Source of the DNA: Pseudoclavibacter caeni
GTDB lineage: Bacteria; Actinomycetota; Actinomycetes; Actinomycetales; Microbacteriaceae
Reading direction: 5' to 3'
DNA: 64,000 nucleotides
Assembly: GCF_008831125.1 (NCBI RefSeq)
Contig: NZ_WBKA01000001.1
Coordinates: forward strand, 248,001-312,000
Below are positions 1,384 to 46,108 of this stretch, one piece after another. Numbering within the stretch: position 1 is the stretch's first letter; each line of letters opens with the position of its first letter. The translations under genes were made by a program, and so were the position numbers. The notes below the pieces were generated by a model, which did not search any database, was not told the origin of the DNA, and saw only the letters and a program-made list of their open reading frames with translations.

Positions 1384-1390
1384 GTCAGAC

Positions 1391-1423: not shown

Positions 1424-1616
1424 TGACGGCGCCATGACGGCGGGTCACGGGGCAGACGCCTCGTGGCCCGCCGTTCGCGTGTGCGGCTGGAGACGACCGA
1501 GCGCGGGCGCGCGTGCGAGTTGCACGATCCTCCAGTCTGGATGCCACATGAGACGCCGTGGCAACCGCGACAGACACAGGCCTGAGTCGACATCATCCCT
1601 GGTCTGTGTCGGCGAC

Positions 1617-1976: not shown

Positions 1977-2113
1977 GCGTCAGGACGACGACCACCGCTT
2001 GGAGCGACGTGCGCGCCAAGCGCCCCGTCGACGAGGCCCTCGGTGGCATCGTGGAGGTCACTGCCGCCTTCGGCAGCCGCAAGGTCGTTCTCTCCACCAA
2101 GGCGCAGGTCTAG
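1973..2113 (+). pseudogene. Antitoxin remnant with internal deletion (HigA-like, HTH missing)
   Basis: A 46-codon ORF beginning ATG AGC GTC overlaps the toxin stop codon by four bases. Its first half (AWSDVRAKRPVDEA) resembles the N-terminus of HigA/XRE antitoxins. Its second half (ALGGIVEVTAAFGSRKVVL) resembles the beta-strand that normally follows the helix-turn-helix. The roughly 50 residues between them that would form the DNA-binding HTH are absent, and the join is in frame. The simplest reading is an internal deletion that removed the DNA-binding domain. Whether the short product still neutralises the toxin cannot be told from the sequence. Confidence 0.55.
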
Positions 2114-2214
2114 GGTCGATCTTTAAAGGGCGCACCCCTCCACCTCGTGGAGCCTTTCACCGTCACGACAGGAGGGAACACTCGGTCAGGGGATTCGGCT
2201 GCCCCTGGGGATCG

Positions 2215-2287
2215 TGGAGCCTAGGGGAATCGAACCCCTGACCTCCTGCTTGCAAAGCAGGCGCTCTACCAATTGAGCTAAGGCCCC
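2215..2287 (-). tRNA. tRNA-Ala (anticodon UGC)
   Basis: Read on the minus strand, the acceptor stem pairs GGGGCCT (2287-2281) with AGGCTCC (2222-2216), including one G-U pair. The D arm has AGCTCAATTGGTAGAGC. The anticodon stem CCTGC/GCAGG encloses TTTGCAA, giving anticodon TGC. The T arm contains GGTTCGATTCC. The discriminator base is A at 2215, and CCA is not encoded. It follows tRNA-Ile on the same strand. Confidence 0.96.
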
Positions 2288-2409
2288 GTGCCCGAGCCGA
2301 GTGACCGCGGCTCGAGTTTCCTCGCGCTTCCTCCGGACACGACGGAGGAGGCGGGATGCTCATCGCCGGCGGGATCGAGAACCACGTTCACGCGGGATCC
2401 GACCGGAAC

Positions 2410-2486
2410 TGGTGGGCCTACCTGGACTTGAACCAGGGACCTCTTCGTTATCAGCGAAGCGCTCTAACCACCTGAGCTATAGGCCC
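2410..2486 (-). tRNA. tRNA-Ile (anticodon GAU)
   Basis: On the minus strand, acceptor GGGCCTA (2486-2480) pairs with TAGGCCC (2420-2414). The anticodon arm CTTCG-CTGATAA-CGAAG gives anticodon GAT, and the T loop contains GGTTCAAGTCC. The 3' CCA appears to be encoded (2412-2410), unlike in the neighbouring tRNA-Ala. A tRNA-Ile/tRNA-Ala pair after gyrA is a common actinobacterial arrangement. Confidence 0.96.
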
Positions 2487-2560
2487 GTTTCACAGCACCA
2501 GATGAGTTTACAACAGGTCTGGCGCCGCAGGCAAATCACGCCACGGGGGCACGACCGCCC

Positions 2561-2974
2561 TCACCGCACGTTGCTGAACGTGAGCTTCAGACCGCCGACG
2601 ATGCGCGCGATGGCATTGTAGATCACCGCGCACAGCCCGCCGAACAGCGTGCCGAAGATGATGGTGACGATGCCTGCGAGCACTGACAGCCCCATCACCC
2701 GGCCGAAGCTGAAGATGCGCGCGACGTTCTCGGCGCCGTCGCTGCTCGTCGTCGACAGCAGGTCGTTGATCGGCTGGAACAGGCCGAGCTGCGACACGAA
2801 CAGCCAGGTGAGCAGGGCCAGCACGAGGCCCACGATCGCCAGGGCGATCGAGACCAGGAACGAGACCTTGAAAGCCGACCACACGTTCACCGCGACGAGT
2901 CGCAGGTGCACGAGCCGACGGCCCTGCGCCGGCCGGTTCGCCGTGGACCCCGACATGGGGGCGATGCTGTTCAT
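2561..2974 (-). CDS. DUF3566 membrane protein
   Basis: Small integral membrane protein of 137 residues matching the DUF3566 family, which in actinobacteria usually follows gyrA. Two hydrophobic segments are visible: VSFLVSIALAIVGLVLALLT (about residues 39-58) and a C-terminal VLAGIVTIIFGTLFGGLC. Between them lies a polar loop that reads INDLLSTTSSDGAENV. I chose the ATG at 2974, which has GAGAGGA about ten bases upstream. A GTG at 2992 that overlaps the gyrA stop codon as GTGA is an alternative that would couple translation to gyrA. Function is unknown. Confidence 0.8.
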   Translation of the reverse strand: MNSIAPMSGSTANRPAQGRRLVHLRLVAVNVWSAFKVSFLVSIALAIVGLVLALLTWLFVSQLGLFQPINDLLSTTSSDGAENVARIFSFGRVMGLSVLAGIVTIIFGTLFGGLCAVIYNAIARIVGGLKLTFSNVR

Positions 2975-2988
2975 CTTCCTGGTTCCTC

Positions 2989-7777: not shown

Positions 7778-8251
7778 CTACCCGTAGGTGTCGCGAGGGC
7801 CGCGACCGGGCACCGACCGGATGCCGCGGCGCCACGACGGCGCGTCCGGCCCGATGAAGCGCATGTCGGTGACCTCCACCTCGGGCAGCAGCTCGGCGAT
7901 CCGGCCGAGCAGACGACTCTTCATCAGGCGCAGGTTCGCCGCCCAGGCGGTCGACTGACAACGCACCTCGACCACCGTGCCGTTGAGCCGGGCGCTCGTG
8001 CGCGCGGCGATGTCGTCGCCGACGACCAGACGCCAGTCGACCGCGAGCCGGGCCTTCTCCAGCGTCGGCTCCCAGCCCCGCTCGCGCACCAGCCGGCCCA
8101 TCACCTGGCCGATGCCGTGCGGATCGCGGCCCGGCGCGAACGGCTCGTCCGAGGGTGAGCCGTCGCCCTGCCGGGCGCGCCGGCGCCGGCCGCCGAACAC
8201 GCGGCGCATCCGCAGGTAGACGAGCGACGCCTCGTCGCGGATCTCAGCCAT
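7778..8251 (-). CDS. DciA-like DUF721 protein
   Basis: The 157-residue product belongs to DUF721, the family of DciA, proposed to help load or operate the replicative helicase in bacteria lacking DnaC-type loaders. The conserved core is [15 protein letters not shown], followed by [19 protein letters not shown], typical of the family's KH-like fold. An Arg-rich N-terminal segment ([10 protein letters not shown]) precedes it. The start codon overlaps the recF stop codon by eight bases, so translation is probably coupled. This position between recF and gyrB is standard in actinobacteria. Confidence 0.85.
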
Positions 8252-9413
8252 CCACGGCCTCCGCCCCGCCGCCGACGATCACCCCGTCGCCGCTGAGCCG
8301 GCCGCGGTCGACGTGCACCACGGCAGTCGGCCGGTCGGCGAAGCGCGGCACGTCCTCGAGCACGGCGGCGGTGACGAGCACCTGCTCGTAGCCGGAGGCG
8401 AGCCCGATCAGCCGGCCCCGCCGGGCCGCGTCCAGCTCGGCGAACACGTCGTCGAGGATGAGCACGGGGTCGCCGGCGGGCGACACGGCCCGCAACGCCT
8501 CGGCGCCGGCCAGGCGCAGGGCCAGCGCCAGCGACCACCCCTCGCCGTGGCTCGCGTACTCCCGGGCGGGCAGCCCGTCGATCGCGAGCAGCAGATCGTC
8601 GCGGTGCGGGCCGACCGAGGTGACGCCGCGCTCGAGATCGCGGGGCCGGGCCTCGCGCAGCCGGTCGGCGAACTCGGCGCGCACGGCGGACGCGTCCCCG
8701 GCCCCGGCGAGCGCGGCGACCGTGTTCGTGCGCAGCTCGGCCGTCGCCCCGGCGTCAGTGTCGGCGATCAGGTCGTAGAGACGGGCCAGCGGACCGGCGA
8801 TCGAGCCGACGAGCGCGACCCGCTGCCGCAGGATCGCCGTGCCCAGGTCGACGAGCTGCTCGTCCCACACGTCGAGGGTGCCGAGGCCGCCGGTGCCGAC
8901 CCGCGAGGCCCGGGCGCTCTTCAGCAGCGTGTTGCGCTGCCGCAACACCCGGTCGTAGCCGCTGATCGTCTCGGCGAGGCGGGGGCGCATGGCCACCGCG
9001 AGCTCGTCGAGCATCCGCCGCCGGGTCTCCGGCCCCCCGCGCACCAAGGCGAGGTCCTCAGGCGCGAACAGCACGGTGGCGAGCTGGCCGGCGGCCTCGG
9101 CGACCCGACGCGGGGCGCGGCCCACGCGGACGCGATTGGGCGCGTCCCGGTTCAGCTGCGCGTCGAGCTGCAGCTGCCGCCCCTCGTGCAGCACCGTCGC
9201 CCGCACGATCGCCTGGTCGCATCCGGCCCGGATGAGCGGCACCGTGGTGGGCACGCGGTGCGAGCCGAACACGGACAGATACCGCACCGCCTCGACGAGG
9301 TTCGTCTTGCCCTGGCCGTTGCGCCCGGCGAACACCTGGATGCGCGGCCCGAGCTCGAGGACGGCATGCGTGTAGTTGCGGAAGTCGCGCACCTCCAGCC
9401 GCTGCACGTACAC
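8244..9413 (-). CDS. recF: DNA replication and repair protein RecF
   Basis: SMC-like ABC ATPase of 389 residues that acts with RecO and RecR to load RecA at single-strand gaps. Walker A is GRNGQGKTN (residues 30-38). The ABC-type signature region reads YASHGEGWSLALALRLA, and Walker B is PVLILDDVFAELD. The start is a GTG at 9413, twelve bases after the dnaN stop codon. The N-terminus MYVQRLEVRDFRNY fits the family, although no strong ribosome site is present. Order and tight spacing with dnaN upstream and the DciA-like gene downstream indicate one operon. Confidence 0.97.
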   Translation of the reverse strand: MYVQRLEVRDFRNYTHAVLELGPRIQVFAGRNGQGKTNLVEAVRYLSVFGSHRVPTTVPLIRAGCDQAIVRATVLHEGRQLQLDAQLNRDAPNRVRVGRAPRRVAEAAGQLATVLFAPEDLALVRGGPETRRRMLDELAVAMRPRLAETISGYDRVLRQRNTLLKSARASRVGTGGLGTLDVWDEQLVDLGTAILRQRVALVGSIAGPLARLYDLIADTDAGATAELRTNTVAALAGAGDASAVRAEFADRLREARPRDLERGVTSVGPHRDDLLLAIDGLPAREYASHGEGWSLALALRLAGAEALRAVSPAGDPVLILDDVFAELDAARRGRLIGLASGYEQVLVTAAVLEDVPRFADRPTAVVHVDRGRLSGDGVIVGGGAEAVDG

Positions 9414-11487: not shown

Positions 11488-12987
11488 CTACCGGTGCGCC
11501 TGCTTCACCGCGGTGGAGATGTCGTTGACCTGGTTGTAGATCGCCCGCTTCTCCTGCATGAGCCGCGAGATCTTGTTGTTGGCGTACATCACCGTGGTGT
11601 GATCGCGGTTGCCGAACAGCTGGCCGATCTTCGGCAGCGACAGGCTCGTCAGCTCGCGGCAGATGTACATGGCGATCTGCCGGGCCAGCGCGATCTGCTG
11701 CGACCGGGAGGTGCCGACGATGTCCTTCACGCTCAGCGAGAAGTAGTTCGCGGTCGTCTCGATGATCGTCTTCGGATCGACGTGGTTGTCGTCGGCGAGC
11801 GTGATCATGTCCTTCAGCGCGGTCTGCGCCAGGGCGAAGTCGATCGGCTTCTGCTCGATGCTCGCGTAGGCGATCACGCGCAGCAGTGTTCCCTCCAACT
11901 CGCGGATGTTCGACGAGACCCGGCTGGCGATGAGCTCCAGGATCTCGTCGGGCACGTCCATCTGCTCGTTCTCGGCCTTGCGGCGGAGGATCGCGATGCG
12001 GGTCTCGAGGTCGGGCGCCTGCACGTCGGTGGTGAGCCCCCACTCGAACCGCGAGGTCATCCGCTCCTGGAACCCGGTCAGCTGCTTCGGCGGCAAGTCG
12101 CTCGTGATCACCAGCTGCTTGTTGTGGTCGTGCAGGTTGTTGAACGTGTGGAAGAAGGCCTCCTGTGTGGAGTCCTTGCCCTGCAGGAACTGGATGTCGT
12201 CGATGAGCAGGATGTCGATGTCGCGGTAGCGCGACTGGAACTCGGCCGCCTCGTTGCGCTGGATCGAGTTGATGAAGTCGTTCGTGAACTCCTCGGAACT
12301 GACGTACAGCACCCGGATGCCGGGGAACAGGCTGATCGCGTAGTGCCCGATCGCGTGCAGCAGATGCGTCTTGCCGAGCCCGGACTCGCCGTAGATGAAC
12401 AGCGGGTTGTACGCCTTCGCAGGGGTCTCCGCGACGGCGAAGGCGGCGGCGTGCGCGAACCGGTTCGAGGCGCCGATGACGAAGCTGTCGAAGGTGTACT
12501 TCGGGTTGAGGCGACTGCCGCCGACCGCGGTCGGCTGGTGCGGACGCGCCGGCGCGGCCGGCGGGGTCACGGTGGCCGGGTCGATGCGCTGCTGCGCGGC
12601 CGCGGGATGCGCGGCCGCCGTTGACTCGACGGGCTCGGCGGCGCGGTCGAGCGCGTGCTGGCTGGGTGCGCGCCTCGGCTGGGGGGACTTCTGCACGAGG
12701 TCGCGCAGCGCCGCGTTGACGATGACGGCGAAGTTCGTGATGTCCTGGTGCTCGGGCTGCACGGCGACCAGCGCGCGCGCCATCGCATCCCGGGCCCGAT
12801 GCTCGATCATCTCGCGGGCGAGCTCGTCAGGCACCTCGAGCAGGATGGTGTCGCCGATGGCGCCCTTGGGATGGATCAGCCCGATGAATCCGGAGAGCTG
12901 GCCGGTGACGTCGGGGTCACCGGCCAGCGCCTGGGCCATGGCGCTCCAGAAGCCCGCCGGGTCGACCGTCGCATCGATCTGCGGCAT
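11488..12987 (-). CDS. dnaA: Chromosomal replication initiator DnaA
   Basis: AAA+ initiator that binds TTATCCACA boxes and opens oriC, 499 residues. An N-terminal oligomerisation domain is followed by a Pro/Ala-rich linker (about residues 100-155). Walker A is GESGLGKT (200-207) and Walker B is ILLIDDIQFLQ. The C-terminal DNA-binding domain has the signature GTSRSQQIALARQIAMY and NRDHTTVMYA. The start is the ATG at 12987 with GGGGAG six bases upstream; a longer in-frame reading runs through the upstream DnaA boxes and is unlikely. It faces away from rpmH and towards oriC. Confidence 0.98.
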   Translation of the reverse strand: MPQIDATVDPAGFWSAMAQALAGDPDVTGQLSGFIGLIHPKGAIGDTILLEVPDELAREMIEHRARDAMARALVAVQPEHQDITNFAVIVNAALRDLVQKSPQPRRAPSQHALDRAAEPVESTAAAHPAAAQQRIDPATVTPPAAPARPHQPTAVGGSRLNPKYTFDSFVIGASNRFAHAAAFAVAETPAKAYNPLFIYGESGLGKTHLLHAIGHYAISLFPGIRVLYVSSEEFTNDFINSIQRNEAAEFQSRYRDIDILLIDDIQFLQGKDSTQEAFFHTFNNLHDHNKQLVITSDLPPKQLTGFQERMTSRFEWGLTTDVQAPDLETRIAILRRKAENEQMDVPDEILELIASRVSSNIRELEGTLLRVIAYASIEQKPIDFALAQTALKDMITLADDNHVDPKTIIETTANYFSLSVKDIVGTSRSQQIALARQIAMYICRELTSLSLPKIGQLFGNRDHTTVMYANNKISRLMQEKRAIYNQVNDISTAVKQAHR

Positions 12988-29086: not shown

Positions 29087-30544
29087 TCAGTCGTCGGGAT
29101 GCGTGCGTCCGTCGTCGAGGCGCGCGTCGGCCGGCGCGGTGTGCGGGGTGATGTCCACGCCCTCGGCGGCCAGCTCGCGTGCGTTGCGCCGGATGCTCGG
29201 CCGCATGAAGGCGTAGATGATCCCGAGCAGCACGAACCAGATCGGCGTGATGATGAGCGCCGCGCGGGTGTCCTCCGCCTGGGCGAGCGCCCAGATGAGG
29301 AAGGCGAAGAACACGAACACGACCACGACGCTCACCCGGCCGCCCGGCAGACGGAAGTGTGAGCGCTCGTGCAGCTCGGGACGCCGGTGCCGGTACACGA
29401 GGTAGCTGATGAGGATCATCGACCAGATGAAGAGGAACAGCACGGATGAGATCGTGGTGACCAGGGTGAAGGCGTTCATCACCGAGTCGCCGGCGTACAG
29501 GAGCACGATGCCGGCGAGCAGGAAGGTCACCGAGAAGAACAGGGCATTCTGCGGTACCTGGCGGCGGCTCAGCGCGCTCAGCCAGTACGGCGCCTCACCC
29601 TGCGTCGCGAGGCCGTAGACCATCCGCGACGTGGAGTAGATGCCGCTGTTGGCCGAGGAGGCCGCCGAGGTGAGCACCACGAAGTTGACCACGTGTGCGG
29701 CGATGCCGAGGCCTGCCATCGTGAACATGTTCACGAACGGGGACTGGGCGGGATCGATGGTGTTCCACGGGCTCACCGTCAGGATCACGAACAGGGATCC
29801 GAGGTAGAAGAGGATGATCCGCCAGGGGATCGAGTCGATCGCCCGCGGCAGCGTCCGCTCGGGGTTCTCGGTCTCTGCGGCCGCGGTGCCGACGAGCTCG
29901 ATGCCGACGAAGGCGAACACCGCGATCTGGAACCCGGCCACGAAGCCGGTGAAGCCGGTCGGGAAGAAACCGCCGGCGTCCCACAGATGTGAGACGGAGG
30001 CGACCGTGCCGTCCGGCGAGCGGTAGTGGGTGACGAGCATGATGATGCCGACGATCACCAGTGCGCTGATCGCGATGATCTTAATCAGAGCGAACCAGAA
30101 CTCCAGCTCGCCGAAGTTGCGCACCGTCGGCAGGTTCAGTGCGAGCAGCAGTGCGATGAGCAGGATCGCCGGCACCCACAGTGGGATGTCCGGGAACCAG
30201 AACTGCGCGTAGCCGGTGATCGCCACCACATCGGCGATGCCGGTGACGATCCAGCACAGCCAGTAGGTCCAGCCGGTGAAGAATGACGCCCACGGGCCCA
30301 GCAGGTCACCCGAGAAGTCCGCGAACGATCGGTAGTCCAGGTTTGACAGCAGCAGCTCGCCGAGTGCGCGCATCACAAAGAAGAGCATCGCGCCGATGAT
30401 CGCGTAGACGAGCAGGATGGATGGGCCGGCCAGATGGATCGTCTTGCCGCTGCCCATGAACAGGCCGGTGCCGATGGCTCCGCCGATGGCGATCAGTTGC
30501 AGATGGCGGTTCTGCAGGTTGCGTGAGAGGGTCTGCTGCTTCAT
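29087..30544 (-). CDS. APC-family amino acid permease, CycA-like (D-Ala/D-Ser/Gly)
   Basis: A 12-helix amino acid/polyamine/organocation transporter of 485 residues. The segment NRHLQLIAIGGAIGTGLFMG and the following GKTIHLAGPSILLVYAI, MRALGELLLSNLDYRSFADF and FTGWTYWLCWIVTGIADV closely follow the CycA (D-serine/D-alanine/glycine) subfamily. Substrate is inferred from that resemblance. The ATG at 30544 has no ribosome site. A TAGACT -10-like element ends nine bases before it, which suggests a nearly leaderless mRNA. It diverges from the LRV-propeller gene; parS site 2 lies between them. Confidence 0.88.
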   Translation of the reverse strand: MKQQTLSRNLQNRHLQLIAIGGAIGTGLFMGSGKTIHLAGPSILLVYAIIGAMLFFVMRALGELLLSNLDYRSFADFSGDLLGPWASFFTGWTYWLCWIVTGIADVVAITGYAQFWFPDIPLWVPAILLIALLLALNLPTVRNFGELEFWFALIKIIAISALVIVGIIMLVTHYRSPDGTVASVSHLWDAGGFFPTGFTGFVAGFQIAVFAFVGIELVGTAAAETENPERTLPRAIDSIPWRIILFYLGSLFVILTVSPWNTIDPAQSPFVNMFTMAGLGIAAHVVNFVVLTSAASSANSGIYSTSRMVYGLATQGEAPYWLSALSRRQVPQNALFFSVTFLLAGIVLLYAGDSVMNAFTLVTTISSVLFLFIWSMILISYLVYRHRRPELHERSHFRLPGGRVSVVVVFVFFAFLIWALAQAEDTRAALIITPIWFVLLGIIYAFMRPSIRRNARELAAEGVDITPHTAPADARLDDGRTHPDD

Positions 30545-30674
30545 TGGACACGGAGTCTAGCCCTCTGCTGCATCACGGGTGTGGTGGACGCCGCCGTTCG
30601 CAGCCGGTTTGGTCGGCGTGCGAGTCGGGCCGAGGTATGGGGCGGAGCATCGCGATGGGTATCCGCGCAGTGGT

Positions 30675-30688
30675 GTTTCACGTGAAAC
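30675..30688. promoter_or_regulatory. parS site 2 (upstream of LRV gene E)
   Basis: Perfect GTTTCACGTGAAAC palindrome in the 250-bp gap between the divergent permease and LRV gene E. It ends 107 bp before the E start codon. It can load ParB. Confidence 0.95.
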
Positions 30689-30795
30689 AACACCGCCATG
30701 GGGGTCTCGCCCCATCGGGATCCGCCAGTGCGCAATCTACGATGGAACAGATGTCGACGCCGACCGGTGTCGAGCGTACGAGCAGGAGGGGGCGC

Positions 30796-33771
30796 ATGAA
30801 CAGCGACGAGCTGCAGCAGCTGCGTGCTTATGCGGGGCATCCGGGAGCCGATCGCGACGTGCTCGCCCGTATCGCCGTGGACCATCCCGACGTGCGGAAG
30901 GATATCCTCGCCAACCCGGGGGTCGACGAGCCGCTCAAGGAGTGGATCCGTCAGCTGCCCGCCGCGCCGACGTCGACAGGGGGACCAAGCGTCGGGACCA
31001 CAGCGGCTGGGATCACCGGAGGGATCTCCGCCGGCGAGGTGTCCACAGCCGGGGCGGGTGGAGTGTCCGGTGTTCCCGAGGTCATCCCGCAGCCCTCGTG
31101 GGGCACGCAGCTCTCGTGGGATGGGTTCGCCGCGTCGGCGCCGCCTCAGCCGGGGGCTCCCCAGCCCGGTCTCGCCCAGCAGACCCCCGGCGCGTGGGGT
31201 GCGCCGACCACGCCACCCGGCTGGAACGGGGGTGTGCCGGATACCCCGACGACCATGCCGATGGGCGTCGCCGGGGTCGCACGCGACGGCTGGTTCCACG
31301 CCCATCGAGGGCTGCTGATCGGCGCCGGCGCCGCGGCGACCGCCGTGGTGACAGGGGTCGCACTCGTGCTCACCGGGGTGATCCCACTGTCTGGACGCAA
31401 CAGAGCGGCCACCAGCGCGATCGCCCAGGACGCGACCAAGGCGATCGGGGCACTGCCCATGGCCGAGGATCCCTACACCACGGAGCCACAGCAGCGCTGG
31501 ACGGTCAACGTCGCAGACCTGCCTGACATCGACGCGGCGGGATTCGTCCCGGGTACCATTGACGACCCCTTGCTGCCCAACGCCATGGCCATGGGTGTCG
31601 GCGACGATGTCGTCCTGCTCGACTACACGACCTCGCTCGATGACAACGACGAAGACGACCGTTCCGCGACGCACGGCGTCGTCGCCCTCGATCGCGCCAC
31701 CGGCGACTACCGGTGGTCGCACCAGTGGCCCACCGACGGCGCGTCCGCGCTCGGTGGCTGTGGCCTCACCCAGGTGGGCGAGGTGTTCGGCTGCGTCACT
31801 GGAGACTCACTGGTGCTGCTGGACGCGGAGACCGGCGAGGTGCGCTCGCAGCAGTCTGCCGGTGATGTGCTTGGCCAGGACGGCGCCAGCCTGCTGCTCG
31901 AGGGCGTTCACGTCGACGCCTCGCGGGACGCGATCGTCGTGACGGGCCAGGGCTCGGATGGCAGCTCAGGGTACCTGCTCGCCGAGGTTCACGCCGATGG
32001 GTCGATCGCCTGGCAGGCCGAGCGCCCGGGCCAGCCGGGTGACCAGGGCGCCGATGACGCCGCTGTCACGGTGGACCAGGCCGGCGACTCGCTGCTCGTG
32101 GAGCTCGGCGAGGACTTCGGGGTCTTCTCACTCGGCTCGGGTGAGCTGCGCGCGGCGGGGACCGGGCAGGTCTGGCTTACCGGTGAGGACGCGCTCGGGT
32201 ACACGGGCACCACCTCGCCGCTCACCGTCAACGCCCTGAGCAACGTCCAGTCGTCAGCCGATGCCGACGGGGCCTCTGCGCCCTTTGCCCCCAGCCAGCG
32301 ACTGGGCCTGCGGCTCTCACAGGATCAGGCGCTCACCCTCCGAGCCACGGACACCGCCACTGGTGAGACACGGTGGTCACGCCAGGGCACCCATGCCGTG
32401 GTGCCGACCGGGCTCGACCAGGTCGTGCCCGTGTGGGACCCGGACAACGGGGGCACGCTCACCGGGGTCAGCGCGACGGACGGCTCGGATCTCTGGCAGC
32501 TCCATCCGGGATCAGGTGCCAGCCCGCTGATCACCGGCGGAGCGGTGCTCGCCACCGGCGGTGCCGCGAGCGTGACGATGCTCGGCACCGATGGCGGGGG
32601 ACGTGCCGCGTCCACCACGACCAGCGAGCAGGCCGGAGTGCCCGCCTGTTCGGACGGCCGGGTGCTGCTCTCCTGGTCGCGCTGGCAGGACGGCTGGATC
32701 AGCGTGTGCTCGGACGACTCGGGGAAGGATCAGGTCGTGCAGCTGCAGCTGCCGGACGGCACCACGCACACCGGCGACCAGATCAGCGTCAACGACGGGT
32801 GGACGCGATTCTGCGGCGCCCTCGACGACGGTGACGTGTGCACCGACTGGCGGGACTCGACGGTGACCTGGCAGCCGAGGGAGGACGACGGCACGGTGTG
32901 GGCCACCAGCGCGGGCTGGTTCAGCGGCAACGGGCGCAGCGGATTCGGCGACTCCGCCCAGGCGCCGGAGACCGTGCCCTCATGCCCGGTCGGCGCCTCG
33001 CCGCTCGGCTGGGGTGTGGAAGGCGACGATTGGGTGCTCGTCTGCGGTGACCGCGACGGCACGCCCACGATGCTGCGCCTGCAGGGCTTCGGCGGGGACG
33101 ATCGCACCGCCGCCGACGTGCACGCCAGCGACGACGAGAACGGTCATGGCGTCTGCGGCGCTGTCGACGGCGCCTCCGTCTGCTTCTTCGCCAACCCGGG
33201 CAGCGTCGTCGTCGACGGCGCCTCCGAACGGGTGCAGACGGGCCTGACCTCGGCCTGGCAGCGTGGGCAGGACGACGCCAGCGCGAGCTCCGGGGCCTTC
33301 GGCGCCCAGCGTCCCTCGGGCAGCGCGCAGAGCCAGGTGCAGTACATCGTCGACGTGCTCGAGCGCTCGAAGGCCGCCCGGACCACCCTGCAGCCGGCGG
33401 TCGACGTCTTCAGCAGCTGCCGGACCGGCCAGTTCTCGCAGGCCCGCGCCACACTGCGCACCGTGACGCAGAACCGGCAGGATCTGCTCGCGGCGATCAG
33501 CTCGGCCCCGGTCGACAGGATCGAGGACGGGGACCGGATGATGGTCCAGCTGCGCACGGCGCTGCAGGCCTCGCTCGACGCCGACAAGGCATACGAGCAA
33601 TGGGCCGACGCGATCATCTCAAGTGGATGCGGGGCTGGATCGGCCTCGTTCGACGCGGGCAACGAGCACTCGGTCGACGCGACCACGGCGAAGCAGGTGT
33701 TCACGGGCACGTGGAACACGTCGATCGCGACACGCTACGGGGTGGCCACGTTCGGACCGAACGACATCTGA
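30796..33771 (+). CDS. LRV protein E: cytoplasmic LRV, one TM helix, PQQ-like propeller
   Basis: The 991-residue protein starts at the ATG at 30796 behind AGGAGGG. Residues 1-55 form an LRV-type helix bundle (DVLARIAVDHPDVRKDILANPGV...LKEWIRQL) related to genes A-D of this window. A Pro/Gly/Ala linker runs to about 165. One transmembrane helix follows (about 172-196, LLIGAGAAATAVVTGVALVL). The outer part resembles PQQ/pyrrolo-quinoline-type beta-propeller repeats: ALDRATGDYRWSHQW, LLDAETGEVRSQQ, ATDTATGETRWSRQ and ATDGSDLWQL. Several cysteine pairs and a helical C-terminal region (VQYIVDVLERSKAARTTLQ) complete it. Orientation (N inside) is inferred from the absent signal peptide. Function is unknown; a surface sensor or ligand-binding protein is possible. 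Confidence 0.8.
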   Translation: MNSDELQQLRAYAGHPGADRDVLARIAVDHPDVRKDILANPGVDEPLKEWIRQLPAAPTSTGGPSVGTTAAGITGGISAGEVSTAGAGGVSGVPEVIPQPSWGTQLSWDGFAASAPPQPGAPQPGLAQQTPGAWGAPTTPPGWNGGVPDTPTTMPMGVAGVARDGWFHAHRGLLIGAGAAATAVVTGVALVLTGVIPLSGRNRAATSAIAQDATKAIGALPMAEDPYTTEPQQRWTVNVADLPDIDAAGFVPGTIDDPLLPNAMAMGVGDDVVLLDYTTSLDDNDEDDRSATHGVVALDRATGDYRWSHQWPTDGASALGGCGLTQVGEVFGCVTGDSLVLLDAETGEVRSQQSAGDVLGQDGASLLLEGVHVDASRDAIVVTGQGSDGSSGYLLAEVHADGSIAWQAERPGQPGDQGADDAAVTVDQAGDSLLVELGEDFGVFSLGSGELRAAGTGQVWLTGEDALGYTGTTSPLTVNALSNVQSSADADGASAPFAPSQRLGLRLSQDQALTLRATDTATGETRWSRQGTHAVVPTGLDQVVPVWDPDNGGTLTGVSATDGSDLWQLHPGSGASPLITGGAVLATGGAASVTMLGTDGGGRAASTTTSEQAGVPACSDGRVLLSWSRWQDGWISVCSDDSGKDQVVQLQLPDGTTHTGDQISVNDGWTRFCGALDDGDVCTDWRDSTVTWQPREDDGTVWATSAGWFSGNGRSGFGDSAQAPETVPSCPVGASPLGWGVEGDDWVLVCGDRDGTPTMLRLQGFGGDDRTAADVHASDDENGHGVCGAVDGASVCFFANPGSVVVDGASERVQTGLTSAWQRGQDDASASSGAFGAQRPSGSAQSQVQYIVDVLERSKAARTTLQPAVDVFSSCRTGQFSQARATLRTVTQNRQDLLAAISSAPVDRIEDGDRMMVQLRTALQASLDADKAYEQWADAIISSGCGAGSASFDAGNEHSVDATTAKQVFTGTWNTSIATRYGVATFGPNDI

Positions 33772-36769: not shown

Positions 36770-36908
36770 TCACCGCGACCCAGCCGGGTTGGCGGTGTCG
36801 GTGTTGCTGCTGGTGTCGGTCACGAAGGCGAGGATGTCGCTCGCGCCGTCGACCTGCGGCAGCCGCCGCACCCTCCCGTGCCATAGAACGTAATCGGGGC
36901 CTTATGTT
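36770..36908 (-). pseudogene. Mosaic remnant: glutaredoxin N-terminus joined to an LRV-family fragment
   Basis: Read on the minus strand, 36908-36853 encodes AEHKAPITFYGTGGCGGCRR. This matches the N-terminus and CxxC site of the glutaredoxin-like protein at 41438-41704 (AEHKTPITFYGAGWCGDCRR). It then runs, in another frame, into VDGASDILAFVTDTSSNTDT (36853-36770). That matches the Ca-motif region of LRV gene A (DINGDGADDVLAFVTDTS). It is thus a scrambled leftover of a glutaredoxin/LRV gene pair, with an in-frame stop at 36770-36772. Confidence 0.7.
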
Positions 36909-37123
36909 CAGCAGGTCCTGCATCTGAGTGATCTGTTGGCCGGCGGCCTCGGCGGTGTCGGTGCCCTTGGGGGAGACGTCGCGGATGAGTGCGTTCAGGT
37001 CTCCGCTGGGCCCGCGCTGCCAGGGCGAGTGCGGGTCGCAGAAGTATTCGGGGCACTCGGTCGTGATGGTGAACTCTGCGGCCCGGGCCATCTCGGTGCC
37101 ATGGTCCCAGGTCAGGGATCTGG
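36905..37123 (-). mobile_element. IS30-family transposase fragment
   Basis: The minus strand encodes about 72 residues of the C-terminal catalytic part of an IS30-type DDE transposase: SLTWDHGTEMARAAEFTI, then YFCDPHSPWQRG, then LIRDVSPKGTD and MQDLLN. Only this piece is left, with no N-terminal HTH, no full catalytic core and no visible terminal repeats. It lies exactly between the stop codon of LRV gene A and the glutaredoxin/LRV mosaic, so it may have been involved in the rearrangement there. Confidence 0.75.
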
Positions 37124-38722
37124 TCAGTCGATGTGCTGCTGCTTGTCGGCTACGAGCTCGCCGAGGGCGAGAGTATCGTTCCGCCAGCTGATGCGGTAGG
37201 TCACGTCGCCGCCGGTGGTGTCGTTGGGGCCGTACGTGTACCGGTAGAGTGTGGCCTGAGCCGAGCCGTCGACGGTCTGCGCTCGGGCGAGTGCATATCG
37301 GAGGTACTGGGACCCGTTGAACATGCTGTGGTCGCTGTTCTCCGGGTAGATGCCGGTGTACACGTCAGCCCATGCAGTGGTCGCCGCGTTGTCTTGCACA
37401 AGCACCAGCTGATCGAGCACCTCGAGGGCGGAACCGTCTGCCGTCGGCGTGTATGCGGTGAGTGCGGCATACCAGATGCCGTTGGAGTCGGTGCCGCCGT
37501 GCACGCTGGTGTCGGTCACGAAGGCGAGAACGTCGTCGGCGCCGTCGCCGTTGATGTCGAACACGGCGGTGGTCTCACTCAGCGGCAGTGCGGTGCCCGC
37601 GGCGGAAGTGTCTCCGGTGTAGTAGTTGGGGACCGCAACGCCGATTGACAGTTCTCGCGGCTGCTCGTCGGCATAATACGTCCACCCGCTGGCATCGGGC
37701 GTGGGCGACGTCCAGTTCTCGGCGTAGGCCTTGCCGTCGGTGAAGTTCTTGAGCGTGCTGGGCGTCGACAGATCGGTGCCGTCGCTGAGCACCGTGCGAT
37801 CGTTGTCGGTGAGTGGTGCGGTTTTGAGGAGTTGTCGGAGGGCGTCTTCGGTCAAGGATGCGTGGGGTGGTGTGGTCTGGGTGGTTTCGGTGGCGGGCGT
37901 CTGGGCGTTGTGCCAGGCGGTGTAGCCGGCGGTGCCGCCGCCGGCGGCGAGGGTGACGGCTGCGGCGCCGATGCCGAGCTTCGCGCCGAGCCCGAGGCCG
38001 CCGGCCTTGGCGGCGCCGGCTGCGGCCGCGGTGTGTGCGGCCCCGGTGCTGCCGGCTCCGGCAGCGGATGCTGTGCCTGCGGCGCTGGTGCCGGTGAGAT
38101 TGGCGCCGAGGCCGGTGGCGGATGCTGCGGTCACACCGGTGTGCGCGGCTGCCGCGGGTGCGGCAGCGGCGAGGCCTGCGGCCTCGGCCCCGGTGGCTGA
38201 TGCTGCGCTCGCTCCGGCTGTGCCTGCGGCGCTGGTGCCGGCCAGGCCGATCCCCGTGGCTGCGGCTCCGGCGGCTGCGGCTCCGGCAGCGGCGACCCCG
38301 GGCAGCACGGCCGATGTGAGCACGGTCTCATCGTCGTCATCGTCGTCATCGTCGGGTGGGGTGGCCTGATCGGTCGGTGTGACGGAGTCGGATGACCCCT
38401 CGTGAGGGTCCATTGTCCGGGACACGGCCGATGTGAGCACGGTCTCGTCATCGTCGGGGTCGAGCAGTGCGGGCGTTCCTGTCGGGGCGATGCCGGTGGC
38501 TGCGGTCGGGGTGGCTGTCGTGGCTGTGCCCTGGGCTGTGGTGGCCTGCTGTTGGGTGAGCCAGGCGGCCAGCTGCGGGTACATGGCGGGGTGGGCGAGC
38601 AGGACGGGCGCCAGCTGCGGCAGCTGCGGCACTCACGCGGCCAGCTGCTGCAGCTGTGTCGGAGTCAGCCGCGGATCCCTCGCCCACGCCAGCAGCTGCT
38701 CCGGCGACGGCGTGTTCGGCAT
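37124..38722 (-). pseudogene. LRV protein A, interrupted by a nonsense codon
   Basis: Starting at the ATG at 38722, the frame is the same as gene B for 29 codons and then meets TGA (38635-38633) where B has TGG (Trp30). A GTG follows the stop directly (38632-38630), so a product lacking the first half of the LRV domain could be made by reinitiation. The rest encodes the LRV end, a Thr/Ala linker with two DDETVLTSAV repeats, an Ala/Gly-rich stretch, one transmembrane helix and an outer domain with FDINGDGADDVLAFVTD and LTAYTPTADGSALEV. The outer domain differs strongly from that of B. parS site 4 lies 57 bp before the start. The coding frame after the stop is well kept, so the loss is recent or tolerated. 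Confidence 0.75.
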
Positions 38723-38723
38723 G
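37801..38723 (-). repeat. Long direct repeat, copy in gene A
   Basis: About 923 bp covering the start codon, LRV domain, linker and transmembrane helix of gene A. It is nearly identical to 40202-41124 in gene B, 2,401 bp away. I count five single-base differences, one of which creates the A stop codon. Homology ends abruptly just after the membrane-proximal segment APLTDND and just before the start codon. Confidence 0.92.
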
Positions 38724-38779
38724 GTGATCTCTCTTCTGCTCTTGCGCTCCGGTCGGGTCTCGTCAGGCTGACTCTGGAT

Positions 38780-38793
38780 GTTTCACGTGAAAC
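38780..38793. promoter_or_regulatory. parS site 4 (upstream of LRV gene A), extended palindrome
   Basis: Perfect GTTTCACGTGAAAC core. Symmetry extends to 28 bp (38773-38800) with TCTGGAT/ATCCAGA arms. It begins 57 bp upstream of the gene A start codon. The rest of the gap 38801-39018 shows only short inverted repeats. Confidence 0.95.
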
Positions 38794-39018
38794 ATCCAGA
38801 TAGAGGCTGGCCGGACGGCCTGTCCCTATTCATCCGTCCATGTCGGTGGCGCATGTCCTTGGTGGGTTGAACTCGGTGACGTACCGTCACGTTCCAGCGT
38901 ACCTCACGACTCTATCGCTCGTGTGTCGGCAGCGACCATGGGCCGATCTCCCCATGGCGGCGCCGTGGGATGGGGCAGGCGCGTGCTCCGGCGGATGCCG
39001 GGGACCCGCAGGTCGGGT

Positions 39019-39285
39019 TCACTTCAGCCGGGGCAGCTCCCGTGGGTTCACTCGGCCGAGAGTGAAGTAGGCGATCGGGCCGACCCAGTTGATCGGGATG
39101 GCCAGGGACCAGAGGAACTTCGGCCCGCGGATGTCGCTGCTCGGGCGGCGGGCGAGATCCGTCGCGGCCGCGGCGGCGAGGGCGAGCTGTGCAGCCGTGA
39201 GCGCGGTCACGGTGACGCGCTGCCCGCGGGAGAGCCGCTTCTTCATCTTCCTGGTGGTGTCGGTGCTCTTCGTGTGTGCGTTCAT
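39019..39285 (-). CDS. Small PLDc_N-type membrane protein
   Basis: An 88-residue protein with a basic N-terminus (MKKRLSRGQR), a first hydrophobic helix (VTALTAAQLALAAAAATDLA) and a second segment with the PLDc_N pattern RGPKFLWSLAIPINWVGPIA followed by YFTLGR. This short domain is found alone or at the N-terminus of cardiolipin synthase-like proteins; alone, its role is unknown. It sits between LRV genes A and B on the same strand. The 39286-39527 gap contains nothing I recognise. Confidence 0.7.
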   Translation of the reverse strand: MNAHTKSTDTTRKMKKRLSRGQRVTVTALTAAQLALAAAAATDLARRPSSDIRGPKFLWSLAIPINWVGPIAYFTLGRVNPRELPRLK

Positions 39286-39527
39286 GATGCGAGCCTATCG
39301 CGTAGGCGAGCCCTCATATACCGGTCAATGCAGTGTGCTTTACATCAAGATTGCCGAGGGTGGACGGTTGGATGTGGTGTCCAGGAATCTGCGCCATGAC
39401 TCTGTTCGGCGGTGAACGGTTGCAATGGATGCGGTGCGGCTATGCCGTTCACAGCGCAATCAAGGTGGCCGTGACCATTCATTTCGGCAGAGGCGCTCGG
39501 CATGGCCGAGCAGTGTTCGGTGCAGGT

Positions 39528-41123
39528 TCACCTCGTCTGAAGATCGCTGATCGTCGGGGTGTCGAGGGTGAGCACACCGTCTTGCCAGACGATGGGGTAG
39601 GCGAGCGTTGCGGATACACCGGGTTCGTAGTCGGGTTCCCATTGCACCTGTTGGTAAGCCAATCCCACCTTGATCTGATCGTCTTCGACGGTGAGCGTCT
39701 TCGCCCAGTACATCGTCGTGTATTGTTCGCCTTGCAGCTTGGTCACCGTAGTTGTGTTGAGTGCATCGTCAAGAGCGCTGTTGTATCCCGGCCAGTCTGG
39801 GTCGCTTGCGAGGCCACCGACGGTGTCGCCATAGCCATCGGTGAGCATGAGCTGTCCCAACACCTCCAGCGCCTGGCCGTCAGATGTCGGGGTATATGCA
39901 GTGACAGCAGTGTAGCTGGAGCCCCATTCATCGCTAGGGTATATCGCCAGATTGACCAAGGACACGATGTCATTGACACCATCACCGTTGACATCGGTGA
40001 CGACTGGAGCCCGATATGGATCCTGTGACGTGAGAGTTGCTCGGTTGCTGTCACCGATGGGAGTGAACTCGTCGCGACCATCGTTGGTCAACGCGGCTTG
40101 CATGTCCTGGTAAGTCACGTCGATGAGGCCGTCGGAAAAATGCCTTGGTGTGGTCACACGGTCCATGTTCGAATGGCTGCGATAAGACGTGACCTTGATG
40201 TCGTTGTCGGTGAGTGGTGCGGTTTTGAGGAGTTGTCGGAGGGCGTCTTCGGTCAAGGATGCGTGGGATGGTGTGGTCTGGGTGGTTTCGGTGGCGGGCG
40301 TCTGGGCGTTGTGCCAGGCGGTGTAGCCGGCGGTGCCGCCGCCGGCGGCGAGGGTGACGGCTGCGGCGCCGATGCCGAGCTTCGCGCCGAGCCCGAGGCC
40401 GCCGGCCTTGGCGGCGCCGGCTGCGGCCGCGGTGTGTGCGGCCCCGGTGCTGCCGGCTCCGGCAGCGGATGCTGTGCCTGCGGCGCTGGTGCCGGTGAGA
40501 TTGGCGCCGAGGCCGGTGGCGGATGCTGCGGTCACACCGGTGTGCGCGGCTGCCGCGGGTGCGGCAGCGGCGAGGCCTGCGGCCTCGGCCCCGGTGGCTG
40601 ATGCTGCGCTCGCTCCGGCTGTGCCTGCGGCGCTGGTGCCGGCCAGGCCGATCCCCGTGGCTGCGGCTCCGGCGGCTGCGGCTCCGGCAGCGGCGACCCC
40701 GGGCAGCACGGCCGATGTGAGCACGGTCTCATCGTCGTCATCGTCGTCATCGTCGGGTGGGGTGGCCTGATCGGTCGGTGTGACGGAGTCGGATGACCCC
40801 TCGTGAGGGTCCATTGTCCGGGACACGGCCGATGTGAGCACGGTCTCGTCATCGTCGGGGTCGAGCAGTGCGGGCGTTCCTGTCGGGGCGATGCCGGTGG
40901 CTGCGGTCGGGGTGGCTGTCGTGGCTGTGTCCTGGGCTGTGGTGGCCTGCTGTTGGGTGAGCCAGGCGGCCAGCTGCGGGTACATGGCGGGGTGGGCGAG
41001 CAGGACGGGCGCCAGCTGCGCCAGCTGCGGCACCCACGCGGCCAGCTGCTGCAGCTGTGTCGGAGTCAGCCGCGGATCCCTCGCCCACGCCAGCAGCTGC
41101 TCCGGCGACGGCGTGTGCGGCAT
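39528..41123 (-). CDS. LRV protein B: LRV domain, one TM helix, Ca-motif outer domain
   Basis: The intact 531-residue family member. Residues 1-58 are an LRV-type helical domain (QLLAWARDPRLTPTQLQQLA, then LLAHPAMYPQLAAWLTQQQ). A linker to about 245 holds DDETVLTSAV at 91-100 and 130-139, an Asp run and many Ala/Gly. One transmembrane helix follows (about 246-270). The outer domain starts LTEDALRQLLKTAPLTDND and has DVNGDGVNDIVSLV and VTAYTPTSDGQALEV. The DNA coding this outer domain has visibly lower GC than its surroundings, a sign of separate origin. The start is the ATG at 41123 with GGGGGAGGG upstream, and parS site 5 lies 63 bp before it. Confidence 0.82.
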   Translation of the reverse strand: MPHTPSPEQLLAWARDPRLTPTQLQQLAAWVPQLAQLAPVLLAHPAMYPQLAAWLTQQQATTAQDTATTATPTAATGIAPTGTPALLDPDDDETVLTSAVSRTMDPHEGSSDSVTPTDQATPPDDDDDDDDETVLTSAVLPGVAAAGAAAAGAAATGIGLAGTSAAGTAGASAASATGAEAAGLAAAAPAAAAHTGVTAASATGLGANLTGTSAAGTASAAGAGSTGAAHTAAAAGAAKAGGLGLGAKLGIGAAAVTLAAGGGTAGYTAWHNAQTPATETTQTTPSHASLTEDALRQLLKTAPLTDNDIKVTSYRSHSNMDRVTTPRHFSDGLIDVTYQDMQAALTNDGRDEFTPIGDSNRATLTSQDPYRAPVVTDVNGDGVNDIVSLVNLAIYPSDEWGSSYTAVTAYTPTSDGQALEVLGQLMLTDGYGDTVGGLASDPDWPGYNSALDDALNTTTVTKLQGEQYTTMYWAKTLTVEDDQIKVGLAYQQVQWEPDYEPGVSATLAYPIVWQDGVLTLDTPTISDLQTR

Positions 41124-41124
41124 G
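40202..41124 (-). repeat. Long direct repeat, copy in gene B
   Basis: Partner of the repeat at 37801-38723, covering the start codon through the membrane anchor of gene B. Both copies include an internal 9-bp tandem repeat (tcatcgtcg three times) encoding the Asp run. Confidence 0.92.
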
Positions 41125-41186
41125 GTGGGTCCCTCCCCCTCGGATGCGCTTGCTCGGCTGCCGCATGAACACCGCCGACGATCCTT

Positions 41187-41200
41187 GTTTCACGTGAAAC
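41187..41200. promoter_or_regulatory. parS site 5 (upstream of LRV gene B)
   Basis: Perfect GTTTCACGTGAAAC palindrome beginning 63 bp before the gene B start codon. The flanks are unlike those of the gene A site, although the distances to the start codon are similar. The rest of the gap to the glutaredoxin gene (41201-41437) shows nothing recognisable. Confidence 0.95.
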
Positions 41201-41437: not shown

Positions 41438-41704
41438 TCAGTCGATCAGGCCGAGTGCACGCAGGTGCGTCTCGAGCTCCTCGTCGGTCGGCTCGACCTG
41501 GTGCGATCCATCGGAGAAGACGAGCACTGGGATGTTCGTCCGTCCACTGAGCGCGTGTGCCTCCTCGGCGCGATCCGGGTCGGCGACGAGGTCGACATAC
41601 TCGTAGGGCACGGCGAGGCGGTCGAGCAGCGCCTTCGACCTGCGGCAGTCACCGCACCATCCCGCGCCGTAGAACGTGATCGGGGTCTTGTGCTCAGCAG
41701 TCAT
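41438..41704 (-). CDS. Glutaredoxin-like (mycoredoxin-type) protein
   Basis: An 88-residue thioredoxin-fold protein with active site GAGWCGDC (Cys17, Cys20) and TNIPVLVFSDGSHQVEPTDEE, which fits actinobacterial mycoredoxin/glutaredoxin-like proteins that use mycothiol or thioredoxin as reductant. The ATG at 41704 gives the normal N-terminus MTAEHKTPITFYG. It follows LRV gene C on the same strand after 89 bp and could be its operon partner. A scrambled copy of its N-terminus lies at 36853-36908 next to another LRV fragment, which suggests the pair was duplicated together. Confidence 0.85.
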   Translation of the reverse strand: MTAEHKTPITFYGAGWCGDCRRSKALLDRLAVPYEYVDLVADPDRAEEAHALSGRTNIPVLVFSDGSHQVEPTDEELETHLRALGLID

Positions 41705-41793: not shown

Positions 41794-43110
41794 TCATTCT
41801 CCGCCCGGACCGACCGCGGTGAACGTCGTCGCGGCGCCGACGGTGATCCTGTCGTTCTGCCAGACCACCGGGAACACGACATCCTCCTCGCCCTCGCCGG
41901 CAGTGGAGTCGTCTGCAGTGCTGATGACGCGACGGACCGTGAGGGACTTCCCGTCCTGGGACAGGTTCATCGCGGTGTAGTAGCCGGTGCGGTCGGCATG
42001 GATCCCGCCCCCGGCGGCGTAAGCGCTGTCGAGCGCGGCGTCGGCGAACCCCGTGTCGCTCTGCGCGGAGAACAGCTCGTTGGCGTCCATGATGAGCATC
42101 TGGCTGCGCACCGTGAGCGCGCTGCCCTCGGCGTTCGGGGTGTACACGGTGAGCGCTGAGTACTCCTCGGACAAGGCGATGCTGTCCGCCTCGTAGTGCA
42201 CCACTGGGTTCGTGACGATCGTGACCACATCTCTCGTGCCGTCGCCGTCCACGTCGGTGACGACGGGCTGCTGTTCGAGGGGGAGGTGTGGGTAGGCGAG
42301 GCGGGCGAAATGTGCCGCGTTCAGCAGACGACCGTCATTGGTGATGGTGACAGTGTCGGAGTCGGATGCCGGAGACAAGTCCTGCACACTGGCCAGCGAG
42401 CCGGTGAACGCCGCCGGAGGGGTCGCCGTGGCGGAGAGCGGAGCATTCTGCAGGTAGGTCTTGTCCGCATCCCCCAGCGGGGCGGTCTTGAGCAGCTCGA
42501 GCAGCTGGCCATCGCTCACCACCGGCTGCGTGTCCTGCGCCTGGCCTGTGGGAGCGGCGGCGACCCCTCCCTCGCCCTGGGACTGGCCGGCCAGTCCGCC
42601 GTGGTCGTAGAACCAGTATCCGCCGCCGCCGATCAGGGCCACTCCGGCGAGTCCGGCGGCGATCTTCGCGATCAGCGCCCCGATGCCGGACTTCGCGGTG
42701 ACCGGGGCTGTCTGCATCGCGGGCGCGAGTGCGGCGTGTGCGGCGGTGTGGTGCAGGGCGCTCGGCGTCGCCATGCTGATGCCGGCGGCATCCGGTGCGG
42801 CAGCGGTCGACTCGGGCATGCTCGCCGCGAACGCTGCGGTGGCGCTGGCGGCCGCACTCGCGGCGGCCGCGTGGTGATGGTCGTCGGACTGCTCGTCGAG
42901 CCCGGCCAGCCAGGCCCCGAGCTGCGGGTACATGTGCGGATGTGCGTGCAGCGCCGCCCGCACACGCGGGTCGGCGGCATGGTCGGTCGCGATGCGCTGC
43001 AGCGTCTGCGGCGGCAGCGCCGGATTGGACAGCGCCCGCAGTGCGTCCGCGACGGATGGGTGTGGCCCCGATCCGGCAGTGGCGGACGGACCCGGGAACG
43101 GCGTGCTCAC
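41794..43110 (-). CDS. LRV protein C: LRV domain, one TM helix, Ca-motif outer domain
   Basis: Intact 438-residue member starting at a GTG with AAGGGGAG upstream. The N-terminal domain reads LRALSNPALPPQTLQRIATD, then HPHMYPQLGAWLAGL, aligning with B and D. A His/Ala/Ser-rich linker (about 75-150) precedes the transmembrane helix IAAGLAGVALIGGGGYWFY. The outer part begins VVSDGQLLELLKTAPLGDAD and carries TDVDGDGTRDVVTIVTNPV and ALTVYTPNAEGSALTV. This outer domain is closest to that of D. parS site 6 lies 120 bp upstream of the start, and the glutaredoxin-like gene follows. Confidence 0.82.
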   Translation of the reverse strand: MSTPFPGPSATAGSGPHPSVADALRALSNPALPPQTLQRIATDHAADPRVRAALHAHPHMYPQLGAWLAGLDEQSDDHHHAAAASAAASATAAFAASMPESTAAAPDAAGISMATPSALHHTAAHAALAPAMQTAPVTAKSGIGALIAKIAAGLAGVALIGGGGYWFYDHGGLAGQSQGEGGVAAAPTGQAQDTQPVVSDGQLLELLKTAPLGDADKTYLQNAPLSATATPPAAFTGSLASVQDLSPASDSDTVTITNDGRLLNAAHFARLAYPHLPLEQQPVVTDVDGDGTRDVVTIVTNPVVHYEADSIALSEEYSALTVYTPNAEGSALTVRSQMLIMDANELFSAQSDTGFADAALDSAYAAGGGIHADRTGYYTAMNLSQDGKSLTVRRVISTADDSTAGEGEEDVVFPVVWQNDRITVGAATTFTAVGPGGE

Positions 43111-44606: not shown

Positions 44607-46108
44607 TCACGACCAGGCCATCGCCCTGATCGGCTCGATCGTCGCGTCGTCGAGGGTGATCGCGTCGCTCTTGAAGCCGATGCGGTAGGTCACCAGGTCG
44701 GTGCCCTGATCGGGGTCGGTGTCGCCGTCGGTGCCCCAGTAGTTCGTGCGGCGCACTGTGAACTCGCTGCCGTCTTCGGAGAGCGAGAGCGCGGTGTACC
44801 CGGAGCCCGAGACCGAGGAGGCGGTATGCGAGCCCCCGGCGGCGAGGTACGCCTCGTCGAGCGCAGCGTCGGCGCTCGCCTGGAGGTCGTAGATGCTGGT
44901 GGCCTCGTCGTAGACGGCCAGCTGCGCACGCACGGTGAGTGCAGAGCCGTCGTCGGTGGGCGTGTAGACGGTGAGCGCCGAGAAGCCGTCGGCCGAGCCG
45001 TTGGAGGAGACGCCTGCCTCGGGCACCGGGTTGGTCACGATGGTCACGATGTCGCGCACCCCGTCGCCGTCGACGTCGCGGATGGCCGGCTGCTGACTGC
45101 GCTTCGCCTGGTACGACGACAGACCGGGGAACTCGGACTCCGTGATCAGCGTGCCGTCATTGACCACACGGACGGTGGACCGTTGAACGAGGCGCTGAGC
45201 ACGGAGCCGGTGTAGTTCGACGGCGCCGTGGCCGAGCCGCCGAGGGCGCTGGCGATCGACGAGATGTAGTCGCGCTCGAGCTGACCGGCCGGCGCCGTCT
45301 GCAGCAGCGCCAGCAGCTCGTCATCGCTCAGGGATGCTGCGGCCGGGCCGGTCTCGGAGGGCTCGACGGGTGGGCTGGTCGCCGCGTCGCCCGAGGTCTC
45401 GCCGCCCCAGGGCAGGCCGCCGTTCAGGGTGAGGTAGCCGGCCGTGCCGCCGCCAGCGACCAGCACGACGGCAACGAGCCCGGCGATGACCTTGCCGGCG
45501 CTGAGACCGCCAGCCTTGGCGCCGACCGTGGCGCCCGCCCTGCCCGCCGCGGCCGCCGCCTGCGCGGCGGAACCGGCTGTGTTGACGGGAGGTATGCCGC
45601 CGAATGCCTGTGACGTTGCGGCGGGGTCGACGTGTGCGGCAGGCGTGAAGGTCTGAGACATCGCCGAGGGGTCGGCGGGAGAGACGGGGGCGCCCGGCGC
45701 ACTGGCGGGTGCGACACCGGAGACCGGGGAGGACGCGGGAGTGGCCGTTGCGCCCGGGGCCCCGGCGAGGTCTGTGCCTGCCGCGGTGCCGGTGCCGGAG
45801 GCCTGACTGGTGGCCAACCCGATGGTGGTGGCCGCCGACGCCCCGATGCCGGAGACTGCGGGCCCGATGTATCGTGCGGCGGAGGGATCGTTCTGCGGCT
45901 GCAGGCCCCGCAGCCACTGCGCCAGCTGCGGATAGGTGTTGGGATGGGCCAGCAGCGGCGCGATCAGCTCAGGATGCTGGGGAGCGTGTGCCGCGATCTG
46001 CTGCAGCTGTGCGGCAGTCGTGGTGAGGTCTCGGACCTGCGCGAGCAGGGCATCCACCGGCGTGCCCGCCGCCCCATTGGCGTTGTTCGGTGCGAACTGG
46101 TCATTCAT
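44607..46108 (-). pseudogene. LRV protein D, split by a frameshift
   Basis: The first frame runs from the ATG at 46108 (MNDQFAPNN) through an LRV domain (LQQIAAHAPQHPELIAPLLA, HPNTYPQLAQWLRGL), an Ala/Pro linker, a transmembrane helix (KVIAGLVAVVLVAGGGTAGY) and LSDDELLALLQTAPAG, then stops at 45146. The outer domain continues in another frame down to 44607: VRVVNDGTLITESEFPG, RDVDGDGVRDIVTIVTNPV, ALTVYTPTDDGSALTV. The shift lies near 45170-45190, within the motif that reads TVTITNDGRL in gene C. A single-base deletion explains it. Both halves are otherwise well preserved. Unlike E, A, B and C, it has no parS upstream; the 234 bp before it hold nothing I recognise. Confidence 0.75.

Follow-up and report, generated by a model that had tools for sequence, protein, structure and literature searches.

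Recurrent gene conversion probably keeps the N-terminal module of tandem LRV_2 paralogues alike in Pseudoclavibacter caeni and two other species of its genus

In Helicobacter pylori, the paired genes babA and babB are alike at one end within a strain, while the rest of each gene is alike between strains. The pair homA and homB is also alike at one end within a strain and diverges over the rest. In two reports, these patterns were ascribed to intragenomic gene conversion, and the 3' segment of the genes was described as being under concerted evolution within strains (PMC3960876, PMC2795765). Here we describe a comparable pair, genes A and B, in a stretch of 64,000 nucleotides from Pseudoclavibacter caeni (contig NZ_WBKA01000001.1, positions 248,001 to 312,000), which is called the window below. 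The window is part of a 2.06-Mb genome (G000) in 11 contigs, and both genes lie on one 570-kb contig. They belong to a set of LRV_2 (PF25591) genes at about 30-46 kb of the window, in which gene E is on the plus strand and genes A, B, C and D are on the minus strand. We consider it highly probable that A and B are old tandem paralogues in which the N-terminal module (the anchor) has undergone recurrent gene conversion, that is, concerted evolution. The pair is a case of an already known gene-conversion pattern, clean but not unprecedented. Its features, in window positions, are as follows.

37124 to 38722, minus strand: gene A, with LRV_2, linker, transmembrane (TM) helix and outer domain, from translation; 533 codons including the final stop
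38633 to 38635, minus strand: interruption of gene A seen in translation, an in-frame TGA at codon 30, with a possible GTG restart at 38632
37800 to 38726, minus strand: tract in A read as converted, covering LRV_2, the Ala/Asp-rich linker, the presumed TM helix and the first part of the outer domain, with 5 differences in 927 bp to 40201-41127
37124 to 37799, minus strand: outer domain of A, which groups with position 1 of G003, another genome of the genus
39528 to 41123, minus strand: gene B, intact, 531 amino acids, LRV_2 at 29.4 bits
40201 to 41127, minus strand: matching tract in B, from the same 927-bp comparison
39528 to 40200, minus strand: outer domain of B, with a guanine-cytosine (GC) content of 0.57

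In an ungapped comparison at an offset of 2401, the 927 bp of the two tracts differed at five positions (37867, 38529, 38620, 38633 and 38716 in A), and BLAST gave 99.46% identity over the same columns. A sequence-only reading of this DNA had noted near-identity over 923 bp from the gene start to past the TM helix, as well as different upstream flanks, and had proposed a breakpoint analysis near 37801 and 40202. Our comparison bears out both observations, as the tract runs from 4 nt before the ATG through codon 307, ending just after the motif LLKTAPLTDND, and the 300-bp upstream flanks of A and B do not align. Both ends of the tract are sharp; the bases just outside them differ, and identity drops to the background. 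The earlier reading had also counted silent positions among the five differences, but all of them change the protein (N/H, stop/W, P/A, G/D and P/S in A/B), and the difference at 38633 makes codon 30 a TGA in A and a Trp codon in B. Five non-silent changes out of five are not a significant excess (p = 0.19; 71% of possible changes are non-silent). Where the two genes encode the same residue, the codons were identical at 302 of 302 places inside the tract versus 26 of 60 beyond it. No change was found in about 263 silent sites of the tract, which indicates that the conversion event was recent. Moreover, the A/B tract was the only self-match of at least 80 bp found in the window at the setting used, and chance is thereby excluded.

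The comparison of positions between species also draws on three further LRV_2 genes of the window.

41794 to 43110, minus strand: paralogue C, LRV_2 (37.0 bits) and outer domain, from the profile match and the outer-domain tree
44607 to 46108, minus strand: paralogue D, its frame broken into two parts (46108-45146 and 45167-44607), corresponding to gene 2 of genome G001
30523 to 33771, plus strand: related LRV_2 protein E, open reading frame (ORF) as listed, true start probably at about 30796, LRV_2 at 35.6 bits

G001, G002 and G003 are other genomes of the same genus, with one assembly per species. A maximum-likelihood tree was built from ten outer domains; 20 residues of the shared tract are part of its alignment and bias it towards grouping A with B. 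In this tree, A was placed with G003 position 1 (support 100/99), and a clade of the A and B outer domains was rejected by the approximately unbiased (AU) test (p-AU 0.00064). With the outer domain of the first G003 gene (position 1), that of A shares 49% identity, against at most 34% with any other of the nine rows; without the 20 shared residues, it is 46% identical to position 1 and 27% identical to B. C fell in a clade (99/99) with G003 position 3, G001 gene 2 and D. The neighbourhood is kept in G003, with E, an ammonium transporter gene, a PurT-like gene, two LRV_2 genes, a third LRV_2 gene and an SPFH gene. A and G003 position 1 both adjoin the PurT-like gene, C and G003 position 3 both adjoin the SPFH gene, and D and G001 gene 2, which are paired by DNA similarity and by their upstream gene, both come after a Meth_synt_2 family gene. 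The gene places agree with the outer-domain tree for A, C, D and their counterparts. Taken together, the tree and the matching places indicate that these outer domains stayed put and that it was the anchor, in A or in B, that was overwritten. The anchors of A and B are 52-54% identical to that of G003 position 2 and 41% identical to that of position 1, which favours a B-type anchor in both genes. Of the compared rows, G003 position 2 alone has the motif DDDETVL in common with them.

The same kind of pattern was found in two related species. In G001, the N-terminal modules of an adjacent pair are 92% identical over 360 bp, and in G003, those of an adjacent pair agree at 134 of 135 bp; the outer domains of each pair are unlike, and their sisterhood was rejected (p 7e-5 for G001, p 0.006 for G003). 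The LRV modules of three G001 genes, one of them about 20 kb away, share 92-93% DNA identity. A silent-site permutation test was applied to 15 of the 28 possible pairs among eight genes, D and G001 gene 3 being excluded for their broken frames. Each of the three adjacent within-genome pairs gave 0 of 5000 permutations, and their tracts lie N-terminally. The count was 924 to 1590 of 5000 for four further within-genome pairs and 492 to 3136 for the eight between-genome pairs, of which none was significant. The tracts vary in position and length: in A the tract covers codons 1-307, in G001 gene 1 it covers codons 1-165, and in the listed ORF of G003 position 1 it covers codons 4-52. Between genomes, silent identity reaches just 40-50% (eight pairs), and the three tracts are therefore best regarded as separate events. 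Concerted evolution is recognised by a segment that is more alike within than between genomes and abruptly bounded, together with a remaining segment that follows descent by position. The former was found here, with sharp ends in A and B, and the latter was found for A, C and D.

Several points weigh against this reading. The outer domain of B has no firm counterpart, as it joins G001 gene 1 with support of 58/66, and its grouping with G003 position 2 was neither supported nor firmly rejected (p-AU 0.076). The anchor tree rejects neither donor placement (p-AU 0.22 and 0.16), and the linker is of low complexity and aligns poorly between species. In the G001 tract, 109 of 133 same-residue codons are identical, so that tract is older or composite. 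With one assembly per species, an assembly error in the 927-bp repeat is possible, although the five differences between the copies disfavour a collapse of the repeat.

The sequence-only reading had explained the pair by recent gene conversion or by exchange of outer-domain cassettes on a constant anchor, as in systems that vary surface specificity. Cassette-based antigenic variation is exemplified by the Neisseria pilin and by Borrelia vlsE. Recent conversion between A and B is well supported, whereas an exchange of outer domains is improbable in our view, since the A outer domain stayed where it was (100/99, p-AU 0.0006), grouping with the same-place gene of another species. A cassette system would account for a near-constant anchor with divergent outer domains and for a B outer domain that lacks a firm counterpart elsewhere, and A and D are interrupted, as silent donors might be. 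However, a search of G000 with an outer-domain profile at E 0.001 gave five matches, all in A-D, although unrelated cassettes would escape it. In addition, inverted pairs in four short scanned regions lay inside the tracts or at a parS-like site, and none spanned a breakpoint. The low GC of the B outer domain, pointed out in the earlier reading, was confirmed and could also speak for a cassette; at 0.568 (39528-40201), it is the minimum for regions of this size in the window, and only one of 1267 sliding windows, overlapping this domain, was as low. On the other hand, low outer-domain GC is also found in G001 gene 1 (0.567) and G003 position 2 (0.581), the lowest among intact array genes of their own genomes, so the low GC of B need not mean a fresh import.

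A recent duplication of the whole gene, after which positive selection drove one outer domain to diverge very fast, would fit two near neighbours whose outer domains have a common ancestry. We find this scarcely credible, because the number of differing same-residue codons goes from 0 in the tract to 34 of 60 beyond it, which needs a jump of rate at one base. It is also contradicted by the outer-domain tree, in which A groups with a gene of another species, and the lack of alignment between the upstream flanks speaks against it too. An assembly artefact, in which a chimeric or misresolved repeat put the B anchor on gene A, has in its favour the 11 contigs of the genome, a repeat longer than a short read and the stop codon in A. 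We regard such an error behind the A/B tract as quite unlikely, since the two copies differ at five places inside a 570-kb contig and the same kind of pattern occurs in two other genomes with other tract lengths.

In the gene conversion reading that we prefer, the divergence of the A and B outer domains would predate the splitting of the genus into species, and the A outer domain, at least, has remained at its own locus. The N-terminal module of one copy would then have recently overwritten that of the other by homologous recombination, stopping just after the LLKTAP motif. We infer a RecA-type mechanism, with B as donor and A as recipient. Such conversion recurs, since N-terminal tracts of their own, at other positions, are present in two further species of the genus. 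Within a genome, the module may be kept alike because different outer domains need one inner partner; alternatively, it may be homogenised simply as the part that is similar enough to recombine. A more speculative idea, which we hold to be rather doubtful, is that the LRV-linker-TM module serves as a shared signalling or docking adaptor kept in step by conversion. Varied outer sensors would then report to one inner partner, and the array near dnaA would be a place where new sensors are joined to the current adaptor.

Genes A-D share the order LRV_2, Ala-rich linker, presumed TM helix and outer domain, and the linker of A and B is rich in Ala and Asp. Judging from the sequence, the four are predicted to be membrane proteins with the N-terminus inside and the C-terminus outside. 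The repeated DDETVLTSA motif of the A/B linker presumably resembles an acidic phospho-threonine site. The curated LRV_2 cut-off of 27 bits is passed by B, C, D (36.8 bits) and E, while the truncated A ORF scored 25.8 bits. With the TGA at codon 30, gene A is interrupted within the LRV domain, or it would need a restart at the next codon, the GTG at 38632. A split is also seen in G001 gene 3 (L041, about 8117-9240), where the linker-TM part seems to be missing; the interrupted array genes seen number three (A, D and G001 gene 3). The C-terminal part of E is different from that of A-D and much longer, and the G003 protein in the corresponding place shares 48% identity with E. Between A and B there is a gene for an 88-amino-acid PLDc_N (PF13396) protein (39019-39285, minus strand). 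Beside C, a 72-bp stretch of a glutaredoxin gene (41629-41700) is repeated with 86% identity at 36843-36914, upstream of the PurT-like gene, and this repeat is perhaps a gene remnant.

The earlier reading held that the outer parts of A and B lose resemblance apart from a faint shared motif. The low similarity was confirmed, with 27% protein identity (54/199), or 34% when the 20 shared-tract residues are included. The domains are nonetheless homologous, and both carry the motifs D-(I/V)-N-G-D-G and TAYTP. The Asp-rich DVNGDG motif, together with a sub-threshold FG-GAP_3 match on B (E 0.003, 18.5 bits, below the cut-off of 26.9), suggests a calcium-binding, propeller-like outer domain. Two models of the outer domain reached a predicted local distance difference test score (pLDDT) of 69 and 77, a modest confidence, and Foldseek against the PDB gave no match at E 0.001 or better for either. 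In VIA-align, all rows had Z below 8, and the best were pieces of propeller proteins (Z 7.5, root-mean-square deviation (rmsd) 2.7, 107 aligned; Z 7.2, rmsd 2.5, 101 aligned), which are common values. On these grounds, we name no fold. As a working idea, the array would supply several outer sensors or binders that share one inner module.

The outer domain is nearly restricted to this genus. Among 299 genomes searched, its profile matched in three of the four genus genomes and in one of 295 other genomes of the family (E 4e-4). In G002, neither protein B nor the profile gave a match. Between its PurT-like and SPFH genes lie others, for an IclR-type regulator, a transporter, an aldolase and an aldehyde dehydrogenase, and tblastn gave no match in this interval; two LRV_2 matches lie elsewhere in that genome. 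The cluster at the place of the array in G002 (L065, 2329-8164) comprises regulator, dehydrogenase, transporter, aldolase and aldehyde dehydrogenase genes, and a cluster that looks like it by eye adjoins the array at G001 gene 1 in L042. A scan of named genomes with protein B found no relative, and a second scan with protein E found one record, Pseudoclavibacter sp. 13-3. Pfam and NCBIfam gave no match over cut-off for the outer domain; A-D had no NCBIfam match at all, and the two for E fell far short of the cut-off. Among the titles and abstract openings listed in a literature search, none dealt with this protein family. The one paper found to name both Pseudoclavibacter and gene conversion is a taxonomy of the phylum.

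Six exact parS-like palindromes, GTTTCACGTGAAAC, are present in the window (16681, 30675, 35375, 38780, 41187 and 43231), compared with 0.04 expected by chance when up to 2 mismatches are allowed. The 12-base core occurs six times in G000, always inside the window, where dnaA lies at about 12025-12510. Four of the palindromes precede the probable starts of E, A, B and C by no more than about 125 nt, and those of A and B are the following.

38780 to 38793, no strand assigned: parS-like palindrome 57 nt upstream of A, from sequence match
41187 to 41200, no strand assigned: parS-like palindrome 63 nt upstream of B, from sequence match

In G003, such palindromes stand before E and position 3, and none was found near the G001 arrays.

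These observations offer a clean example from three species of recombination that affects the anchor rather than the part presumed to be exposed. A constant anchor with a variable outside need not imply shuffling of outer domains, and the polarity can be read by comparing same-place genes across related species. A further outcome is an outer domain, carried by LRV_2 proteins and nearly limited to one genus, that has no Pfam or NCBIfam match over cut-off.

B, C, D and E resemble known LRV_2 proteins in passing the curated cut-off, but A-D differ from them by carrying a nearly genus-confined outer domain after LRV_2. With the cassettes of antigenic variation, the array shares recombination between paralogous genes for presumed exposed proteins; in contrast to those systems, the profile search revealed no cassette store, and A has kept its variable part in place. 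In the H. pylori pairs, the segment concerned is the 3' one of Gram-negative outer-membrane proteins, whereas here it is the 5' segment of actinobacterial genes, with LRV_2, linker and presumed TM helix, seen in three species at the sequence level. What the locus shares with babA/babB and homA/homB is that one segment of paired genes is homogenised within the genome and the remainder is not.

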